Below are positions 179 to 35,899 of a stretch of 64,000 nt of DNA, piece after piece. The notes beneath the pieces are model-generated. The model made no database searches. It was given only the letters and a program-made list of their open reading frames with translations, and was not told where the DNA came from. Within the stretch, counting starts at the first letter, position 1, and every line of letters begins with the position of its first letter. The stretch comes from Janibacter alkaliphilus (lineage in GTDB: Bacteria; Actinomycetota; Actinomycetes; Actinomycetales; Dermatophilaceae): positions 1,178,001 through 1,242,000 of the forward strand of contig NZ_JACBZX010000001.1 in assembly GCF_013408565.1 (NCBI RefSeq), in the 5' to 3' direction. The position numbers and the translations under genes were made by a program.

Positions 179-2512
179 ATGAGCATCGCGGACGGGCACG
201 ACACGATCACGGTCCGGGGCGCCCGGGTCAACAACCTCAAGGACCTCGACGTCGACATCCCCAAGCGGCGGCTGACCGTGGTCACCGGGGTCTCCGGCTC
301 GGGCAAGTCGAGCCTCGTCTTCGGGGCGATCGCGGCCGAGTCGCAGCGCCTCATCAACGAGACCTACTCCGCCTTCGTCCAGTCCTTCATGCCGGCGATG
401 CCCCGGCCGGACGTCGACGAGCTGGCGAACATCACCGCCGCGATCATCGTCGACCAGGAGCGCCTCGGCGCCAACGCCCGCTCCACCGTCGGCACGACCA
501 CCGATGCGCTGGCCATGCTGCGGCTGCTGTGGTCGCGCTGCTCGACCCCCTACGTCGGGTCGGCCAAGGCATTCTCCTTCAACGCCGCCTCGGCGACCGG
601 CAGCGGGATGCTCAAGACGAACGGGGGGAAGGCGGAGAAGGCCACCTTCGAGATCATCGGCGGGATGTGCCCGGAGTGCGAGGGCAAGGGCACGGTGGCC
701 ACCGTCGACATCGACGCCCTCGTCGACCGGGAGCTCTCGCTCAACGAGGGCGCCATCCTCGTCCCGGGCCTGAAGGTGGGCAGCTGGCAGTGGCGCTCCT
801 ACGCCGAGGCCGACCCGCTGGACCCGGACAAGCCGCTGAAGGACTACACCGACGACGAGTGGCACTGGTTCATGCACCAGGACGAGACGAAGGTGAAGTT
901 CGCCGGGATCAACTACACCTACCTCGGTCTCATGGGTCGGGTGCGCCGCAGCTTCATCGACCGGGAGACCGAGTCCAAGCAGGCGCACGTCATCGCCTTC
1001 GCGGAGCGGGCGGCGACGGTCACCGCCTGCCCGGAGTGCGGCGGCACCCGCCTCAACGAGGCCGCCCGCACCGCGACGGTCGACGGGCGCACCCTGCCCG
1101 AGGTGACCGCGCTGCAGGTCAGCGACCTGCTCGACTGGGTCCAGGGGCTCGACGAGCCGTCGGTGGCACCGCTGCTGGCGCGGCTGCGGCACATGCTCGC
1201 CGCCTTCGTCGACATCGGTCTGGGCTACCTCTCCCTGGACCGGCCGGCCGGCACCCTCTCCGGCGGCGAGGCGCAGCGGGTGAAGATGATCAGCCACCTC
1301 GGCTCGGCGCTGACCGACATCACCTACGTCTTCGACGAGCCCACCGTCGGGCTGCACCCGCACGACATCTCCCGGATGAACGACCTGCTGCTGCAGCTGC
1401 GGGACAAGGGCAACACCGTGCTCGTCGTCGAGCACAAGCCGGAGGTCATGGAGATCGCCGACCACATCGTCGACCTCGGCCCGGGGGCAGGGCGGGACGG
1501 CGGTCGGATCGGCTTCGAGGGTGACGTCGACGGGCTGCGCGCCTCCGGCACCATCACCGGCCGCTACCTGGACCACCGGATCGGGCTGCGCGAGCAGCTG
1601 CGCGAGCCCACCGGGGCGCTGGAGATCAGGGGAGCCAGCACGCACAACCTCCAGGACGTCGACGTCGACGTGCCCACCGGGGTGCTCACCGTCGTCACCG
1701 GGGTCGCCGGCTCGGGCAAGTCCTCGCTCATCCACGGGTCGCTGGCCGGCCGCGAGGACGTGCTCGTCGTCGACCAGTCGGCGATCAAGGGGTCGCGGCG
1801 CTCCAACCCGGCCACCTACTCCGGTCTGCTGGAGCCGATCCGCACCGCCTTCGCCAAGGCGAACGGGGTCAAGCCCGCGCTCTTCAGCGCCAACTCCGAG
1901 GGTGCCTGCGAGGGCTGCGGCGGGCACGGGGTGATCTACACCGATCTGGCGATGATGGCCGGGGTCGTCGTGACCTGCGAGGAGTGCGGCGGGCGCCGCT
2001 TCAAGCCCGAGGTGCTGGAGTACCGGCTGCACGGGCTGGCGATCGACGAGGTGCTCGACCTGTCCATCGCCGGGGCAGCCGAGGTCTTCACCACCGGCAA
2101 GCCGAAGAAGATCCTGACCCGGCTGCTCGACGTCGGCCTGGGCTACCTCACCGTCGGGCAGCCGCTGACCACGCTCTCCGGCGGCGAGCGGCAGCGGCTC
2201 AAGCTGGCGGCCCAGCTCGGCGGCGAGGCCCGCACGATCGTGCTCGACGAACCGACGTCGGGGCTGCACCTGGCCGACACCGAGCAGCTGCTGGCGATGC
2301 TGCACGGCCTCGTCGAGGAGGGGCACTCGGTGATCGTCATCGAGCACAACCTCGCGGTCATCGCGCAGGCCGACCGGCTCATCGACATCGGGCCCGGGGC
2401 CGGGCACGACGGTGGGCGGGTGGTCTTCACCGGCACCCCGCAGGAGATGATCGACGGCGCGCAGACGCTGACCGCCGAGCACCTGCGGGCCTGGGTGGGC
2501 GCGGCCGGCTGA
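179..2512 (+). CDS. UvrA-like ABC ATPase (excinuclease subunit A family, short form)
   Basis: This is a UvrA-family tandem ABC ATPase of about 777 residues, shorter than housekeeping UvrA (about 950). The first P-loop (GVSGSGKSS) is near residue 40 and the second (GVAGSGKSS) near residue 510. Two LSGGE signatures are each followed by a DEPT Walker B. CxxC zinc-binding pairs (CPECEGKG, CPECGGT, CEGCGGHG, CEECGGRR) lie between the nucleotide-binding halves, as in UvrA. The short form with drug-resistance or UvrA2-like relatives is common in actinobacteria; whether it acts in excision repair with UvrB or in DNA protection is unknown. A TTG 12 nt upstream is in frame, but ATG at 179 is preferred. 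It stands alone on this strand. Confidence 0.9.
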   Translation: MSIADGHDTITVRGARVNNLKDLDVDIPKRRLTVVTGVSGSGKSSLVFGAIAAESQRLINETYSAFVQSFMPAMPRPDVDELANITAAIIVDQERLGANARSTVGTTTDALAMLRLLWSRCSTPYVGSAKAFSFNAASATGSGMLKTNGGKAEKATFEIIGGMCPECEGKGTVATVDIDALVDRELSLNEGAILVPGLKVGSWQWRSYAEADPLDPDKPLKDYTDDEWHWFMHQDETKVKFAGINYTYLGLMGRVRRSFIDRETESKQAHVIAFAERAATVTACPECGGTRLNEAARTATVDGRTLPEVTALQVSDLLDWVQGLDEPSVAPLLARLRHMLAAFVDIGLGYLSLDRPAGTLSGGEAQRVKMISHLGSALTDITYVFDEPTVGLHPHDISRMNDLLLQLRDKGNTVLVVEHKPEVMEIADHIVDLGPGAGRDGGRIGFEGDVDGLRASGTITGRYLDHRIGLREQLREPTGALEIRGASTHNLQDVDVDVPTGVLTVVTGVAGSGKSSLIHGSLAGREDVLVVDQSAIKGSRRSNPATYSGLLEPIRTAFAKANGVKPALFSANSEGACEGCGGHGVIYTDLAMMAGVVVTCEECGGRRFKPEVLEYRLHGLAIDEVLDLSIAGAAEVFTTGKPKKILTRLLDVGLGYLTVGQPLTTLSGGERQRLKLAAQLGGEARTIVLDEPTSGLHLADTEQLLAMLHGLVEEGHSVIVIEHNLAVIAQADRLIDIGPGAGHDGGRVVFTGTPQEMIDGAQTLTAEHLRAWVGAAG

Positions 2513-2554
2513 CCTCGAGGTGGCGCCTCAGCGCTGAGAGGCGCGGGTACGTGC

Positions 2555-3352
2555 TCACTTCTGCAGGTACATCCCCTGACCCTGGTCGATGCTCAGGCGC
2601 AGCAGCACGTCCTGGCTGTCGTCGTGCTCCTCGTCGTAGTAGAAGAGCGTCCACTCGTGCACCGTCCAGCCGGCGTCGGAGCGCTGCAGCTCGAGGTTGA
2701 GCCCATAGGTCACGGCATCGACCTTCTCGCCGGTGGGCAGGGTGTACCCGTCGGTCGAGACGGCGACCTTGGTGAAGGTCCCGCCCGGGTCGGTGAGCGC
2801 ACGGTCCTCGGTGGCGCCCTCCCACGGGACCGGGTCGAGCAGGGACCCCGCGACCGCCCTGGCCTCGAGATCGGCCGCGTACGCGGCGCACACCTGGCAC
2901 GAGCTGGCTGTCAGAGCGGTCAGGCCCGAGGGATTGCCGGTGCTCGTCGCCGCCAGCAGCTGCCCCCAGTAGTGCTCGGTGAAGGCCACGGCCCCGTCGT
3001 CGGTGCCCGCCCGCGCGGCGGACGGGACGGGCGCTCCCACCTCGGGGATCTGTGCCGCGCCGTTCCCGGTCGTGGACCCTGACCCGCGGTCGGACCCGGA
3101 GCCCTGGGTCGACCCGGAGGTGGCCTCGGTGCCTGGCGCGGCGGTCGGGGACTCTCCGGAGGACGCGCCGGCGCTGCCGAACGGTGACCCGGCGGCGCTG
3201 GCCGACGACGGCTGGGAGGTCTCCGTGGAGCTCGCCGTGCGCGAGCCGGTCGCGCCCGGGTCGTTGTCCCCGGTGCTGGCGCAGCCGGCCAGCAGCAGCG
3301 CCGTCGCGGCGCTGGCGGCAGCGGCGATCGAGAGGGGCCGTCGTGAGTGCAT
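2555..3352 (-). CDS. DUF6318-family lipoprotein
   Basis: A predicted lipoprotein of 265 residues. The N-terminus has a short basic start, a hydrophobic alanine/leucine stretch and the lipobox LLLAGC near residue 22, so it should be lipid-anchored outside the membrane. A Ser/Thr/Gly/Pro-rich linker covers about residues 25-120. A folded C-terminal domain contains the CQVCAAYAADLEARA-like pattern seen in actinobacterial DUF6318 proteins. The start is set at the ATG before the signal peptide; the upstream arginine-rich extension is not plausible. The function is unknown. It converges with the UvrA-like gene, with 42 nt between stops. Confidence 0.75.
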   Translation of the reverse strand: MHSRRPLSIAAAASAATALLLAGCASTGDNDPGATGSRTASSTETSQPSSASAAGSPFGSAGASSGESPTAAPGTEATSGSTQGSGSDRGSGSTTGNGAAQIPEVGAPVPSAARAGTDDGAVAFTEHYWGQLLAATSTGNPSGLTALTASSCQVCAAYAADLEARAVAGSLLDPVPWEGATEDRALTDPGGTFTKVAVSTDGYTLPTGEKVDAVTYGLNLELQRSDAGWTVHEWTLFYYDEEHDDSQDVLLRLSIDQGQGMYLQK

Positions 3353-30326: not shown

Positions 30327-32066
30327 TCACCGTCGGTCGCGGACGAGGGTGAGCCGTCGTCGAGGACCGTCACGGCTGATCTGTGCGTGGTAGCCGCGGT
30401 CGAGCAGGCGGTGGTGGTGCCCGCAGAGGGGGACCGCGTTGTCGAGGTCGGTGCGGCCGCCGGACCGCCACGCGGCGAGGTGATGGATCTCGGACCAGGC
30501 GAAGGGCACGTCGCAGCCGCCGATCGCGCAGGTGTCGTACCTGGTCGCCAGGGCGGCGCGCTGGGTCGAGGTGAAGAAGCGGGTCTGACGGCCGAGGTCG
30601 AGCGGCTGCCCGTCGGTGCCGAGGACGGCGGGGATGATCCCGGCCGCGCACGCCAGCTGTCGCAGCTGCCCGGCGGAGACAGGGTGACCGGTGTCGCTGG
30701 CTCCGACCCTGGGGCCGCCGGACCGCGTCCCGTTCGACCCTGGTGCCTGCAAGTTCGGCACGCTCGACTCCGCACCTGGTGAGCCTGACCCGGTCGCGCC
30801 TCGCTGCGGGGTGCTCGGGCCGCTCTGGCCGGTGCCGGCGGCGCCCTTCTGCAGGTCGTGCAGGCGGGTGGTGACGACGAGGGTGGCGGCGGTCTTCTCG
30901 TGCAGGTGGTCGGTCGGCAGATGGGTGAGCAGGGTGGCGAGGTCCTGGCCCTGGCGACGCATCCGAGCCAGGCGACGGTCCTTCCAGGTCATCGACGGGT
31001 CGTACCAGGAGGGCTCGGCGCCGTCGTTCGCCCCCGAAGAGGCACGCCCTGTGCTTCCGTCGACCCCTCTGCGCCCGTCGACCCCGGTGCTTCTGTCGCA
31101 GTCATTGCCGCTGTCTCGTGCCGGTGTGCGCCGGCGTGGGGAGGACATCGCGTCGAGGACCTTCTTCAGCACCAGCCCGGGGACGGTGGGCACGGTGAAC
31201 TGCCCGAACATCGTGCCGTCGTCGTTGTCCTTGATCCAGAACGAGCACCGTTCCCACGCGGCGTCCTCCTCGCGGGTGACGACGGTGCTCTCGTGGGTGT
31301 CGGCCGCGGCGGTGTCGCCGGTGACTCGTTCCAGCACGCGCGCGGCCAGGCGTCGTAGATCCCGCGGCGCGCGCCCCCTGGCCAGGCGCACCAGCTCGAC
31401 CTCGCACCGCGCTCGGACCTCGGCGCCGGTCCCGTCCGGCAGGTCACCCATGACCCCGGTGATGACGTCGACCTGCTCCGGCGAGAGATCGCCCGCCAGC
31501 TGTGCCCGTGCCACGAGTGACAGGCCGGCCCGCGGTGACGTCGCCGCCTCGGCAGGGTCCGTGTCGGACGGACCGCTCGGGCCGGTCGGCCCTCCAGCGC
31601 CCTCTCCACCGACACCCGATCCGTCAGACGCCGGTCCGTCCGGCGCCGATCCACCGGCCATGTCACCGCCCACCTCTGTCGTATCGCTCAGATCCGTCCC
31701 GAGGAGGCCCTCGCCGAGGGCCTCCACCCGTCGCGCCTGGCGGTGCGCCGTGCGCGGGTCAGTGCCGGTCACCCCAGCCACCCACGCTGCCGGGGTCCGC
31801 GCCCCACCTGCTTCGTCGGCGCGGGCGGCGCTGGCGATCGCGGCACCCTTGTCACGCAACGCCTGCGTCCGGTTGACCAGCCGCGTCAGCTCCCGCAGCA
31901 CTGCTGCCAGGTCGTGCGAGGTGACCCCGCGAGCGCGTGCCAGCGCGTCGAGCTCGTGGTCGAGCAGGTCCAGCCCCGCGTGCAGCTGACCGCAGACCCC
32001 GCCGGCGCACCGGTCGACACCGGAGGTGGCTGCCTCCGGGGTCTGCACGAGCGTGTCGCCTGCCAT
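30327..32066 (-). CDS. DUF222 / HNH endonuclease (13E12-repeat family)
   Basis: A protein of 579 residues. The N-terminal DUF222 helical domain (LLDHELDALARARGVTSHDLAAVLREL, AWVAGVTGTDPRTAHRQARR) is interrupted by Gly/Pro/Ser-rich linkers. The C-terminal HNH nuclease has CAIGGCDVPFAWSEIHHL and LCGHHHRLLDRGYH. The family corresponds to the mycobacterial 13E12 REP proteins, several of which are SOS-induced. The role is unproved; DNA processing is likely. The start ATG 32066 is set by the promoter: TATGTT ends 6 nt before it, preceded by TGTCGGTG, with a LexA-like box overlapping. Coding beyond 32066 would run through that promoter. Confidence 0.88.
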   Translation of the reverse strand: MAGDTLVQTPEAATSGVDRCAGGVCGQLHAGLDLLDHELDALARARGVTSHDLAAVLRELTRLVNRTQALRDKGAAIASAARADEAGGARTPAAWVAGVTGTDPRTAHRQARRVEALGEGLLGTDLSDTTEVGGDMAGGSAPDGPASDGSGVGGEGAGGPTGPSGPSDTDPAEAATSPRAGLSLVARAQLAGDLSPEQVDVITGVMGDLPDGTGAEVRARCEVELVRLARGRAPRDLRRLAARVLERVTGDTAAADTHESTVVTREEDAAWERCSFWIKDNDDGTMFGQFTVPTVPGLVLKKVLDAMSSPRRRTPARDSGNDCDRSTGVDGRRGVDGSTGRASSGANDGAEPSWYDPSMTWKDRRLARMRRQGQDLATLLTHLPTDHLHEKTAATLVVTTRLHDLQKGAAGTGQSGPSTPQRGATGSGSPGAESSVPNLQAPGSNGTRSGGPRVGASDTGHPVSAGQLRQLACAAGIIPAVLGTDGQPLDLGRQTRFFTSTQRAALATRYDTCAIGGCDVPFAWSEIHHLAAWRSGGRTDLDNAVPLCGHHHRLLDRGYHAQISRDGPRRRLTLVRDRR

Positions 32067-32069
32067 GAA

Positions 32070-32085
32070 CCGAACATACGTGCGA
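32070..32085 (-). promoter_or_regulatory. LexA (SOS) box candidate
   Basis: On the minus strand this reads TCGCACGTATGTTCGG, matching the actinobacterial SOS consensus TCGAAC-N4-GTTCGA at 10 of 12 defined positions. It overlaps the -10 box of the DUF222-HNH gene, an effective position for repression. Confidence 0.6.
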
Positions 32086-32094
32086 CCACCGACA
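32073..32094 (-). promoter_or_regulatory. PafBC/RecA-NDp-type promoter of the DUF222-HNH gene
   Basis: TGTCGGTG (32094-32087), exactly 8 nt, then TATGTT (32078-32073), 6 nt before ATG 32066. This agrees with the LexA-independent DNA-damage promoter TTGTCRGTG-N8-TANNNT known from mycobacterial recA. The position implies a leaderless mRNA. Confidence 0.7.
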
Positions 32095-32194
32095 GCGTCA
32101 GCCCACCTTCTGGTGCTGTGGACCGTCGGTGTCTCGTCGCCACGCATGTGCACTGTCACGGCCCGCGCGGCGCCCAGGTTGAGACGATCAGTCG

Positions 32195-32734
32195 GTGATC
32201 CCGCTGGCCACCGCCCGGCTCCGGCTGCGCCCCTTCGACATGGGCGACGTCGACGCGATCCTGGCCATCCACCAGAGCCAGCAGCTGCGTCGGTTCATCC
32301 CGACCCAGGTGCTCGAGGACGAGTCCGAGGTCCCGGCGCGGGTCGCCCGCTTCGCCCGCTTCGACGACGACCCGACCCTCGGCATCGTCGCCCTCGAACG
32401 ACTCGGAGACGGCTGCGTCGTCGGCCTCGTCATGGCCCAGCCGATCCCCGCGTCGGAAGGCGTCGCCCTGAACGACGTCGAGATCGGGTGGCGCGCGCAC
32501 CCCGAGCACAGCGGGCAGGGATACATCACCGAGGGGGCGAGAGCGGTCCTTCACCACCTGCTCGGCTCCGGCCTGCCGCGGGTCGTCGCCGTGACAAGTC
32601 CCGACAACCACGCCTCCCAGGCCGTGTGCGAGCGCATCGGGATGCGCCCTGCCGGGACCACCACGGACTACTACGACACGTCGACCATCCTCTTCGTCGC
32701 CGAGGCAGAGCCCAGCGACACGTCAAGGCTGTGA
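32195..32734 (+). CDS. GNAT-family N-acetyltransferase (RimJ/RimL-like)
   Basis: A protein of 179 residues. It has the GNAT fold of the RimJ/L type: LATARLRLRPFDMGDVDAI at the start, ALNDVEIGWRAHPEHSGQGYITEGARAVL covering the acetyl-CoA pyrophosphate loop (Q/RxxGxG-like SGQGYI), and SPDNHASQAVCERIGMR as the conserved C-terminal helix. The acceptor substrate is unknown. GTG 32195 is used. Transcribed divergently from the damage-type DUF222 gene, with about 130 nt between starts. Confidence 0.85.
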   Translation: MIPLATARLRLRPFDMGDVDAILAIHQSQQLRRFIPTQVLEDESEVPARVARFARFDDDPTLGIVALERLGDGCVVGLVMAQPIPASEGVALNDVEIGWRAHPEHSGQGYITEGARAVLHHLLGSGLPRVVAVTSPDNHASQAVCERIGMRPAGTTTDYYDTSTILFVAEAEPSDTSRL

Positions 32735-32856
32735 GCCAGCCGCGCATCACGCCGATGCCTTCCTATCCGGTGCTATTGCTCCTGCACTAGACATGAGGAG
32801 AGTCTGGTACCGAACCCGCTGGCGCGGAGTCGTGCATCGCGCGGTCATCGCCTCCC

Positions 32857-33216
32857 TCAGGTCGTCGACCACACCCCGAGCTCGTTGCCTGCCGGGTCGT
32901 GGAAGTGGAAGCGGCGCCCGCCCGGGAACTCGTAGGGCCCGTCGGTCACCGTGCCGCCCGCCTGGCGAACCGCCTCCACCGACGCGTCGAGGTCGTCGGA
33001 CCACAGCAGGACGAGCGGTCCGTCCGTCGAAGGCGGGCTCTGGGTGGTGATGCCGCCGGCCTCGCCGGGTGCCCCGAGCCGCTGGAAGCCGGCGTACGTC
33101 GGCCCCTAGTCGGTGAAGGTCCAGCCGAAGGCGCTCTCGTAGAAGGTCTTGGCCGCGTCGAGGTCGGTCGCGCCGAGCTCGACGTAGTCGATCGCGTGAT
33201 GAGTGTGCTCTGTCAT
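32857..33216 (-). pseudogene. Glyoxalase/VOC-superfamily gene with internal TAG
   Basis: A protein of 119 codons: ATG 33216 gives [20 protein letters not shown]..., a VOC-fold (glyoxalase/bleomycin-resistance/dioxygenase) small protein with FYESAFGWTFTD, PLVLLWSDDLDASVEAVRQAGG and FHFHDPAGNELGVWS. An in-frame amber codon (33108-33106) replaces what is probably Tyr in FTDYGPTY. No frameshift is present. Either a nonsense mutation or a base-call error. It has its own strong damage-type promoter immediately upstream, so loss would matter to the regulon. Confidence 0.75.
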
Positions 33217-33222
33217 GCGCCG

Positions 33223-33244
33223 ACCCTGGCACCGACCACCGACA
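33223..33244 (-). promoter_or_regulatory. PafBC/RecA-NDp-type promoter of the glyoxalase gene
   Basis: TGTCGGTG (33244-33237), 8 nt, then CAGGGT (33228-33223), 6 nt before ATG 33216. The spacing is identical to the neighbouring damage-type promoters; the first base of the -10 box is C instead of T. Confidence 0.6.
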
Positions 33245-33298
33245 GCGCCCCTCCGCGCCAGCGACAGCCCCTCCGAGAGTGGCGGCAGCCCGAACGCC

Positions 33299-34429
33299 TC
33301 ACCGCGGCAGCCCCGCCGTCAGCCGCGGCAGCGCCTTCTCCACCGGACCGGGCAGCACCCCGCCGAAGGGGGTGACCACCACCGGGTCGCTCGCGGCCCT
33401 CTTCCCCTTCGCCCGCTGCCACGTGCCGAGCGCTCGCCCGGCGCGGATCACGGTCGGTCGGAAGACCCCGTTCTTGCCCGGCACGACGTGCTCGCGCTCC
33501 TGCGCGTCGGTCATCACCGCGGAGCGGTCGCCGTAGCCGAGGACGATCTCGTCGAAGCCCGGCAGCAGCAGCGGCGCGCTCGTCGCCCGCTTCCGCGAGC
33601 CGTACGCCTCCAGCACCAGCGGATCCACCCAGTGCCGGGCGCCGCCGACCTTGATGCTGGTCAGCTCGGCGGTCGCCGTCTCCAGCACCGGGGCGATGTC
33701 GCGGCGCAGCAGCTTGCTCCACCAGAGGAACTCCTTGTCGGTCACCGGCCCGTGGCTGCGCAGGTAGCGCGCGCACCACCGCGCGACCGCCTCCTCGCGT
33801 GCCAGCGGCGTCTGCGGCGGCAGCCACCGCTCGCTGAGCACGAACCGCTGCTCCACCGACCCGCCCTCGGTGACCCACGTCGGTCCGAGGCAGAGGATCT
33901 GGGAGAGCGCGAGGTGGAAGATGAGGTGGTACCCGCGACCGGAGTCCACCGGCAGCTCGGCCTCCTCCCACACGGCGAGCAGCCCGGCGCGGGTCAGCCC
34001 CTCGGCGGGGATCGTCGCCCCGGCCAGCGCCTCGGCACGACCCAGGTGCTCATCGGTGAGCCCCAGCTCGGCGCGTCGCCGCGCCGTGGCCTGCTGGGTC
34101 GCCGCGCCCATGAGGTCGAGCATCCAGCCGAGGTCCTCCGCGGCGACGACGAAGAGGGTCCCGCGCATCGGCCAGGAGCGCACGATCTCGCCGGCGTCGT
34201 AGGCGGCGTGCACCTCGGCCAGCGAGCGCCGGGAGGTGCGCAGCGCCACCGACGTCGTCGACCCCGGCCAGTCCTGCCCCTGCGTGCACGTCAGGTGACG
34301 CACCACGTCGACCGGTCTCGCACCGGCGTCCGCCTGACCGGACCCCGCCGCGCCTGCCGCCTCGAGGGAGACCAGCCGCTGGGAGAGCAGCCGCATCCGG
34401 GCGACGTCGTCGAGGCTCCAGCGGGTCAT
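33299..34429 (-). CDS. AlkZ-like (HTH_42, winged-helix) DNA glycosylase
   Basis: A protein of 376 residues. A HTH_42/DUF1006 winged-helix protein, the family that includes Streptomyces AlkZ and E. coli YcaQ, glycosylases acting on bulky alkyl adducts or interstrand crosslinks. Near residue 50 the sequence [10 protein letters not shown] carries a QxQ motif in the place of the AlkZ catalytic Gln-x-Gln. [22 protein letters not shown] and the C-terminal [17 protein letters not shown] are typical of the family. Transcription from a damage-type promoter with TAGCGT 6 nt before the ATG supports a repair role. Substrate and activity are untested. Confidence 0.82.
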
Positions 34430-34435
34430 GCCCCG

Positions 34436-34457
34436 ACGCTAGCCCTCACCACCGACA
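34436..34457 (-). promoter_or_regulatory. PafBC/RecA-NDp-type promoter of the AlkZ-like gene
   Basis: TGTCGGTG (34457-34450), exactly 8 nt, then TAGCGT (34441-34436), 6 nt before ATG 34429. The best match of the three promoters in this cluster. It lies 3 nt from the stop codon of gnd, so the promoter fits entirely in the 30-nt gap between the genes. Confidence 0.7.
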
Positions 34458-34459
34458 GC

Positions 34460-35899
34460 TCAGTCCGCCGACACCTCGGACCGGTCCCCCGACCACAGCG
34501 TGTGGAAGACCCCGTCCCGGTCGGTGCGCCGGTACGTGTGTGCGCCGAAGAAGTCCCGCTGCCCCTGGATCAGCGCCGTGGGCAGCTGCTCGGCGCGCAG
34601 CCCGTCGTAGTAGGCCAGGCTCGAGGAGAAGCCCGGCGCCGGGATGCCCGCCTGCGCCGCGGTCACCACCACCCGCCGCCACGCCTCCTGGGCCTCGCCG
34701 AGCGCCTGCCGGAAGTACGGCGCCAGCAGCAGCGCGGACAGGTCCGGGTCGTCGGCGTAGGCCTCGGTGATCCGCCCGAGGAACTGGGCGCGGATGATGC
34801 AGCCGGCCCGCCAGATCTTCGCGACGTCCCCCTTCGCGATGTCCCAGCCGTGCTCGGCCGCCCCGGCGGCGATCTCGTCGAAGCCCTGCGAGTAGGCGAC
34901 GATCTTCGAGGCGAAGAGGGCCTGCCGCACGTCCTCGACGAAGGTCTCCGGGTCGTCGACGGTCCACTCCTGGGAGGGGCCGGGCAGCCCGCGGGCGGCC
35001 TCCCGCTGACCCAGCCGCGAGGACAGCGAGCGGGCGAAGACGGCCTCGGCGATCCCGGAGACCGGCACGCCCAGGTCCAGCGCGGTCTGCACGGTCCAGG
35101 CACCGGTCCCCTTCGCGCCGGCCGCGTCGAGGATGACGTCGACGAGCGGCTCGCCGGTGGCCTCGTCGGTCTGCCGCAGCACCTCGGCGGTGATCTCGAT
35201 GAGGTAGGAGGCCAGCTCGCCGGAGTTCCACTCCTGGAAGACGTCGGCGATCTCCGCCGGGCTCTTGCCGGTGCCGCGGCGGATGAGGTCGTAGGCCTCG
35301 GCGATGAGCTGCATGTCGGCGTACTCGATGCCGTTGTGCACCATCTTCACGAAGTGGCCGGCGCCGTCGGTGCCGACGTGGGTCACGCAGGGCTCGTCCT
35401 CGGCGACGGCCGCGATCGAGGCGAGGATCGGGCCGAGCGTCTCGTAGGACTCGGCGGGGCCGCCGGGCATGAGCGAGGGCCCGTTGAGGGCGCCCTCCTC
35501 GCCGCCGGAGATGCCGCAGCCGACGAAGTGGATGCCGGTGTCGCGGATCGCGGCCTCGCGGCGGATGGTGTCGGTGAAGAGGGCGTTGCCGCCGTCGACG
35601 ATGATGTCGCCCGGCTCGAAGACCTCGGTGAGCTCGTCGATGACGGCGTCGGTGGCCGCCCCGGCCTTGACCATGATGATCGCCGTGCGCGGTCGCTGCA
35701 GGCTGTCGGCAAGCTCCTGAACGGTGGTGGTCCGCACGAAGCCGGCCTCGGGGTGCTCGGCGATCAGCTCGTCGGTCTTGGCGGTGGTGCGGTTGTAGAC
35801 GGCGACCGTGTTGCCCTCGCGGCTGGCGAGGTTGCGGGCGAGGTTGCTGCCCATGACGGCGAGTCCGACGACGCCGATGGTGGCGGTGGCCTGAGGCAT
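34460..35899 (-). CDS. gnd: 6-phosphogluconate dehydrogenase, decarboxylating (NADP)
   Basis: Oxidative pentose-phosphate pathway enzyme, 6-phosphogluconate to ribulose 5-phosphate; 479 residues, the long-chain form. The Rossmann start [26 protein letters not shown] (Arg/Thr for NADP), [54 protein letters not shown] (catalytic Lys) and the C-terminal [21 protein letters not shown] are all conserved. Ribosome binding site GAAAGGA before ATG 35899. Divergent from the ACC deaminase gene. Confidence 0.96.

Follow-up and report, generated by a model that had tools for sequence, protein, structure and literature searches.

Candidate PafBC-type DNA-damage promoters directly before DUF222-HNH, VOC-fold and AlkZ-like genes of Janibacter alkaliphilus

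The RecA-NDp/PafBC regulon of mycobacteria was reportedly described by Gamulin in 2004 and Muller in 2018. The M. tuberculosis consensus is given as TGTCGG-10N-TA-3N-T (PMC8151990), and PafBC activated by single-stranded DNA adapts the sigma-A polymerase to the -26 element (PMC11804915, PMC6789036). Here we describe a 64,000-nucleotide (nt) stretch of J. alkaliphilus contig NZ_JACBZX010000001.1 (the window, whose positions serve as coordinates below), in which sequence reading and a script place the layout TGTCGGTG-N8-hexamer-N6-ATG before each of three minus-strand genes encoding a DUF222-HNH protein, a VOC-fold protein and an AlkZ-like protein. The -26 element, the spacing and the -10 hexamer are those of the mycobacterial regulon (PMC8151990, PMC11804915, PMC6789036, PMC8223512), in which recA, uvrA, uvrB and other repair genes also stand behind the box and pafB-pafC are present, as is the case here. 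The present system differs in belonging to another actinobacterial family, in having VOC and AlkZ-like genes that carry the box directly, and in that most start codons lie 6-8 nt behind the hexamer.

The SigG regulon of M. tuberculosis contains damage-induced genes with glyoxalase/bleomycin-resistance-type domains, Rv0887c and Rv0911, which resemble the VOC gene. Their induction, however, proceeds via a RecA_NDp-controlled sigma factor acting at the promoter CGATGA-N18-GTCNNTA (PMC3776920), whereas the VOC gene described here has a PafBC-type box of its own. An earlier note on this DNA had held that a role for such a small enzyme in the damage response would be new; the SigG regulon precedes it. 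Another related system is SiwR-dinS, in which a WYL activator responds to genotoxic stress and a PF18029 glyoxalase-like gene lies beside siwR in some actinobacteria. The SiwR site is a 19-base-pair (bp) imperfect palindrome with a GGA triplet (PMC10693628), and the VOC loci differ from this arrangement in that no WYL gene was found in the DNA around 95 of them. The promoter type is known already, and what seems new is that the VOC gene itself carries the box across actinobacteria: no printed statement of a VOC gene as a direct PafBC target was found in the literature searched, which excluded the main 2018 regulon paper and the M. smegmatis regulon table.

The AlkZ-like gene (33299..34429, minus strand, ATG 34429-34427) encodes 376 residues and was assigned by Pfam (PF06224) and by its match to AlkZ 5uuj. 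Its TGTCGGTG, the predicted -26 element, lies at 34450..34457 and its -10-like hexamer, TAGCGT, at 34436..34441, 6 nt 5' of the ATG. The VOC-fold gene (32857..33216, minus strand, ATG 33216-33214) has 119 codons with a TAG at codon 37 (33106-33108); TGTCGGTG is located at 33237..33244 and the hexamer CAGGGT at 33223..33228, again 6 nt from the start. The region 5' of the VOC ATG at 33216 is accounted for by this predicted PafBC-type box. Counted from the ATG behind its box, the DUF222-HNH gene (30327..32066, minus strand, ATG 32066-32064) encodes 579 residues with PF02720 and PF01844, and is preceded by TGTCGGTG at 32087..32094 and by TATGTT at 32073..32078, 6 nt 5' of the ATG; a longer frame from GTG 32159 takes in the box. 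The hexamers, the N8 spacer and the N6 gap reported in the earlier note proved exact for all three genes. Judged by the RecA-NDp consensus, TGTCRG(TG) is exact in 3/3 and followed by N10 after TGTCRG (N8 after the octamer) in 3/3, and TANNNT is present in 2/3. At 22 bp 5' of the VOC TGTCGGTG (33237-33266, minus strand) there is a further sequence, TGTCGCTG, which may be a second, degenerate copy of this element.

The window holds 13 copies of TGTCRGTG, and the full layout, with [TC]ANNNT at +8 and an ATG 6 nt further on, occurs at these three alone; it did not appear in 300 first-order Markov shuffles of the window. The octamer itself is over-represented in the window (179 sites with at most one mismatch versus 84 expected), and it is thus the layout, not the octamer, that carries the signal. 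The strict motif TGTCRGTG-N8-TANNNT has 14 sites in the 3.32-Mb genome and its reversed pattern none, and relaxing the hexamer to NANNNT gave 39 sites against 4 for the reversed pattern, with many of the 25 added sites lacking a start codon close behind. Strict sites were present in 16/16 genomes of the genus, at 6 to 14 per genome, and the reversed control was zero in 16/16. One might suppose that TGTCGGTG is common in GC-rich DNA and the layout coincidental, since the window has roughly double the shuffled count of the octamer family. Given the shuffles and the reversed-pattern controls, a box before recA in 7/7 genomes and a box conserved before VOC orthologs, we reject coincidence as extremely improbable.

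The genes behind the strict motif were read at the 14 sites of the J. alkaliphilus genome and at 54 sites in six single-contig congeners, giving 68 sites and 67 proteins (one site has no protein); family counts are among the 25 of 41 families listed. RecA and SbcD stand behind the strict box in 7/7 genus genomes, joined by DUF222 proteins (8), exonuclease-domain proteins (4), UvrA (3), UvrB (2), an AlkZ-like protein (1) and a DNA polymerase III alpha-type protein (1). The J. alkaliphilus sites precede recA (L014), uvrB (L012), sbcD (L011) and DUF222 genes, as well as SprT-like (L004) and histidine kinase (L001) genes and, by eye, one ABC-type and one epimerase-like protein. With the relaxed hexamer, DNA polymerase IV (L024), NAD ligase (L033), a mycothiol S-transferase-like protein (L021) and a second VOC protein (L030) are added. 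The genome also encodes an adjacent pafB-pafC pair that matches solved PafBC proteins with E-values of 4.6e-55 and 2.8e-46. The genome scan proposed in the earlier note does score recA, uvrB and sbcD, and the note's assignment of the boxes to the PafBC/RecA-NDp type is borne out by the motif before recA, sbcD and other repair genes and by the PafB and PafC matches.

We consider it quite probable that the three sites are PafBC-dependent, LexA-independent damage promoters of the RecA-NDp type, and we take this to be the best explanation of the whole. The part of it that is based on sequence comprises the box, its spacing, its position 6 nt before three ATGs, the boxes of recA, uvrB and sbcD, the pafB-pafC pair and the retention of the box before VOC orthologs. 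The mode of induction would be that published for mycobacteria, carried over by analogy. Damage would expose single-stranded DNA, and PafBC, binding it through its WYL domains, would join the sigma-A polymerase such that TGTCGGTG is read at about -26 instead of a -35 element. Because the gap between hexamer and ATG is 6 nt, transcription would be expected to begin on the ATG itself or right beside it, giving leaderless mRNAs of the HNH-nuclease-like, AlkZ-like glycosylase and VOC genes.

A damage-linked box could also be read by ClgR or another WYL-domain activator in place of PafBC. The genome has five WYL matches, a ClgR-like (ClpR) regulator has been reported on this motif in mycobacteria (cited in PMC5656591 and PMC3776920), and SiwR, another WYL activator, likewise acts via the -26 region (PMC10693628). 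We nevertheless judge a reader other than PafBC to be quite unlikely, as PafBC sites were mapped to RecA-NDp and its complex with polymerase has been described (PMC6789036, PMC11804915), and as tblastn detected no WYL gene beside VOC at 95 loci (about 1.5 kb on each side for 15 of them, up to 4 kb for 80), a search in which the positive-control loci were detected. A first blastp search for WYL genes beside VOC, which had no positive control, also returned none. On the basis of these 95 loci, we rejected the idea that a WYL regulator is encoded next to VOC.

Orthologs of the VOC gene show how the box has been retained. Matches at E <= 1e-15 were found in 15/185 other genomes of the family, none with an internal stop, and in 0/15 congeners. 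One of the 15 matches, L056, is a distant relative, and the other 14 were used for the box count: TGTCRGTG is exact before 5, within one mismatch before 10 and within two mismatches before 12, each of these 12 having TANNNT and a start codon 6-7 nt behind it. The octamer of L053 differs at three positions, and L052 has no such box. In Phycicoccus sp. HDW14 the VOC gene (L144) is free of the stop and carries the box. The box is kept although the remaining flanks have diverged. A further 80 VOC loci, 65 actinobacterial and 15 not, were the best 80 of 540 relatives picked by protein similarity alone. Box A was defined as TGTCRGTG (at most one mismatch), N8, YANNNT and 6-7 nt to the start, and box B as TGTCGTAC (at most one mismatch) followed by CANNAT. 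Among these best 80 of 540, box A was found at 18/65 and box B at 17/65 actinobacterial loci, and neither at any of the 15 non-actinobacterial loci. The background at the same actinobacterial loci was 4 A and 0 B among 28,996 ATG/GTG codons, and 0 of 959 long frames. The box B class was set after viewing the data, which makes its Fisher value optimistic; scans of six genomes for TGTCGTAC, described below, are the more independent support. Box A precedes VOC genes in Micrococcales, Mycobacteriales, Propionibacteriales, Pseudonocardiales and Streptosporangiales, and a quick VOC tree, with few columns and many open forks, required 11 label changes for A and 7 for B.

VOC products are nonetheless a minor class among the genes behind strict box A, with one VOC-superfamily protein (L240) among the 67 proteins of the seven genomes (by eye; L240 by Pfam). 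L240 is a congener PhnB-type protein with a perfect box 6 nt 5' of its ATG. In six genomes reached via named loci, one VOC protein (L200) was present among 30 loci viewed of 65 matches. The second VOC gene of the J. alkaliphilus genome (L030, PF18029, G000:C1:1597646-1598078) has TGTCGGTG-N8-CAGGGT-N6-ATG. It has matches in 82/185 other family genomes, and the box was found in 3/29 of those viewed (L277 with one mismatch, L282 and L285); a -10-like hexamer close 5' of the ATG is common among its homologs. L030 is a loose regulon member. A third VOC-like protein, PhnB-type by eye (L022, G000:C1:852209-852230), lies behind TGTCGGTG-N8-GACGCT, which is not directly at its start.

The VOC protein belongs to the VOC superfamily, as PF00903 was detected in 15/15 members of VOC set A1 and Ble-like_N in 13/15. 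Its best match in the PDB is 3oxh, Rv0577 (1.5e-18), and the likeness to Rv0577-type VOC/bleomycin-binding proteins extends to the Ble-like_N domain; unlike that type, it has a single domain, and it scores 33.7 bits against a KbpA cut-off of 250. At what would be the three metal-ligand positions of the usual VOC consensus, the protein has Y10, L67 and G113. Since these positions appear replaced, a metal-dependent glyoxalase seems unlikely. The name glyoxalase used in the earlier note is doubtful when judged against the usual VOC pattern. The note also missed the in-frame TAG, and its proposal that a glyoxalase takes part in the response is not supported for this strain, in which the gene is interrupted and its product would end after 36 residues. 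Where relatives keep the gene intact, damage would probably induce a protective protein, one binding or detoxifying genotoxic small molecules, and not a metal-dependent glyoxalase I.

Alternatively, the stop could be a sequencing error or be read through, and the intact protein could be a carbonyl-detoxifying glyoxalase. Apart from codon 37 the frame is open through codon 119 and well conserved, and methylglyoxal detoxification has been proposed for two SigG-induced glyoxalase-domain genes of M. tuberculosis (PMC3776920). This alternative is unlikely considering that the assembly is one contig with 99.99 percent completeness, that the metal-ligand positions appear replaced with respect to the usual VOC pattern, and that a sigG mutant had unchanged methylglyoxal susceptibility (PMC3776920).

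Several findings weigh against three PafBC-dependent damage promoters as an explanation of the whole. The VOC hexamer CAGGGT has one mismatch to TANNNT, the TAG at codon 37 (33108-33106) breaks the VOC frame, and the metal-site argument depends on comparison with a general VOC consensus. Neither box is present at 30/65 actinobacterial VOC loci (among the best 80 of 540). The AlkZ box is kept in only 3/28 other family orthologs (L082, L083 and L086), and it was consequently rejected as a conserved trait; six more orthologs (L074-L078 and L081) have a TANNNT hexamer with 2-4 octamer mismatches. Finally, some strict sites precede transporters, a histidine kinase or other genes with no known repair role. 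An outcome that the earlier note had named as refuting its reading, a motif equally frequent before unrelated genes, was nevertheless not observed.

AlkZ is an interstrand-crosslink glycosylase. The AlkZ-like protein aligns with AlkZ (5uuj) over residues 40-363 with an E-value of 7.7e-12 and QGQ at QAQ, sharing PF06224 and the QxQ motif; its glycosylase activity is putative. It is a distant homolog, and its gene was seen in no antibiotic cluster. Elsewhere, boxes precede AlkZ-like genes of Micromonospora lupini (L212, box A) and of Paractinoplanes maris (L330 and L347, TGTCGTAC). In two genomes of the sister genus (L300 and L301) AlkZ and DUF222 share a strand, with the AlkZ start 96 and 76 nt beyond the point where the DUF222 match ends, and the DUF222 box reads TGTCGGTG-N8-TATGTT-N6-ATG in one genome and TGTCAGTA-N8-TATGTT-N6-ATG in the other. 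In the sister genus, an operon with DUF222 may place AlkZ under control of the damage box.

The earlier note had suggested that the three genes form a DNA-damage island. A functional island, in which the genes are kept together and their products act in one pathway, could explain why three sites fall within 2364 bp (2.4 kb), for which P is about 0.001, 0.0016 and 0.012 with 15, 20 and 39 random sites, respectively. DUF222 and AlkZ are also adjacent in the sister genus, with a malic enzyme gene nearby. This sister cluster lacks VOC, however, and at the thresholds used neither the VOC gene nor an AlkZ-like ortholog was found in 15 congeners. The neighboring 6-phosphogluconate dehydrogenase gene (gnd, 34460-35899, minus strand), which adjoins the AlkZ-like gene, likewise had no match at E <= 1e-100 in these congeners (0/15) and was rejected as a stable neighbor; with gnd lacking a congener match, the stretch looks accessory. 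No AlkZ-like or DUF222 match was detected in the DNA around 95 other VOC loci. As the three genes are not together in congeners, the sister genus or these VOC loci, the suggestion is not upheld in relatives: a conserved three-gene island was rejected, and a functional one appears doubtful. We read the proximity of the genes as accretion of accessory regulon members and not as a conserved island.

The second form of the box was characterized in six genomes. TGTCGTAC-N8-TANNNT has 24 sites in P. maris, 13 in M. lupini, 6 in a Blastococcus and 2 in Nocardiopsis metallicus, and none in Streptosporangium sandarakinum or Phycicoccus sp. HDW14; the reversed control gave one site over all six. Viewing 44/45 sites (one lies at a contig end) yielded 42 proteins. 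These comprise DUF222 proteins (12), AlkZ-like proteins (2) and one each of RecA, LigA, UvrA, polymerase (pol) IV, exonuclease VII, a GIY-YIG/DnaQ-type exonuclease, a PD-(D/E)XK nuclease, a RadA-like protein and a VOC protein (L342); the remainder are transporters, other or unknown proteins. Three of the six genomes have TGTCGTAC-CANNAT, at 18 sites in all against none in the control; the genes behind them include RecO, MGMT, a helicase and 4 VOC of 18, two of these VOC being known beforehand. The narrower TGTCGTACC-N7-CANNAT was found in 13/16 Micromonospora genomes (G186 and 15 from its genus), with a control of 0 in all. Both box forms occur together in 4/6 genomes. With repair genes behind it, TGTCGTAC is a damage-type element, its putative reader being PafBC or another activator.

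Taking both forms together, we propose that TGTCGTAC is a second -26 form of Micromonosporales, Geodermatophilales and part of Streptosporangiales, read by a diverged PafB or a sister WYL activator, that much of one gene set (recA, ligA, uvrA, pol IV, AlkZ-like, DUF222 and VOC) lies behind both forms, and that the small VOC protein, lacking the usual metal ligands, recurs in actinobacteria under direct damage control, probably guarding against DNA-damaging natural products. We regard this joint proposal as evenly poised between right and wrong. When S. venezuelae was first searched with the M. smegmatis motif, the motif seemed not to be conserved there (PMC9380542). The existence of a TGTCGTAC form may help to explain that result, Streptomyces being outside the genomes examined. 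The boxes would extend the PafBC-type damage response to this actinobacterial family and offer testable members with a little-studied damage role: DUF222-HNH, AlkZ-like, VOC, mycothiol S-transferase-like and small CxxC proteins. A direct box before VOC in several orders and induction via SigG in M. tuberculosis (PMC3776920) suggest selection for making such a protein upon DNA damage, and the question of its ligand becomes testable.

Further genes were noted behind the boxes. The mycothiol S-transferase-like gene (L021, PF04978/DinB_2, G000:C1:769828-769849) has TGTCGGTG-N8-CAGGCT-N6-ATG, and its superfamily is one under SiwR control in M. smegmatis. A small protein that begins with a C-x2-C-type motif (DCxTCPVxxxxCxxC) lies behind the box in 5/7 genus genomes (L009, L218, L224, L235 and L266; L009 has no Pfam match) and also behind boxes in Phycicoccus, Blastococcus and, with TGTCGTAC, Micromonospora (L209, L210 and L371). 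Loci with TGTCGTAC forms (L167-L184, L302-L328 and L329-L372) derive from Paractinoplanes, Micromonospora, Blastococcus, Nocardiopsis and Streptosporangium. In one of them, L332 of Nocardiopsis metallicus (1533-3020), the recA frame behind the TGTCGTAC box holds a LAGLIDADG endonuclease domain, and hence probably an intein.

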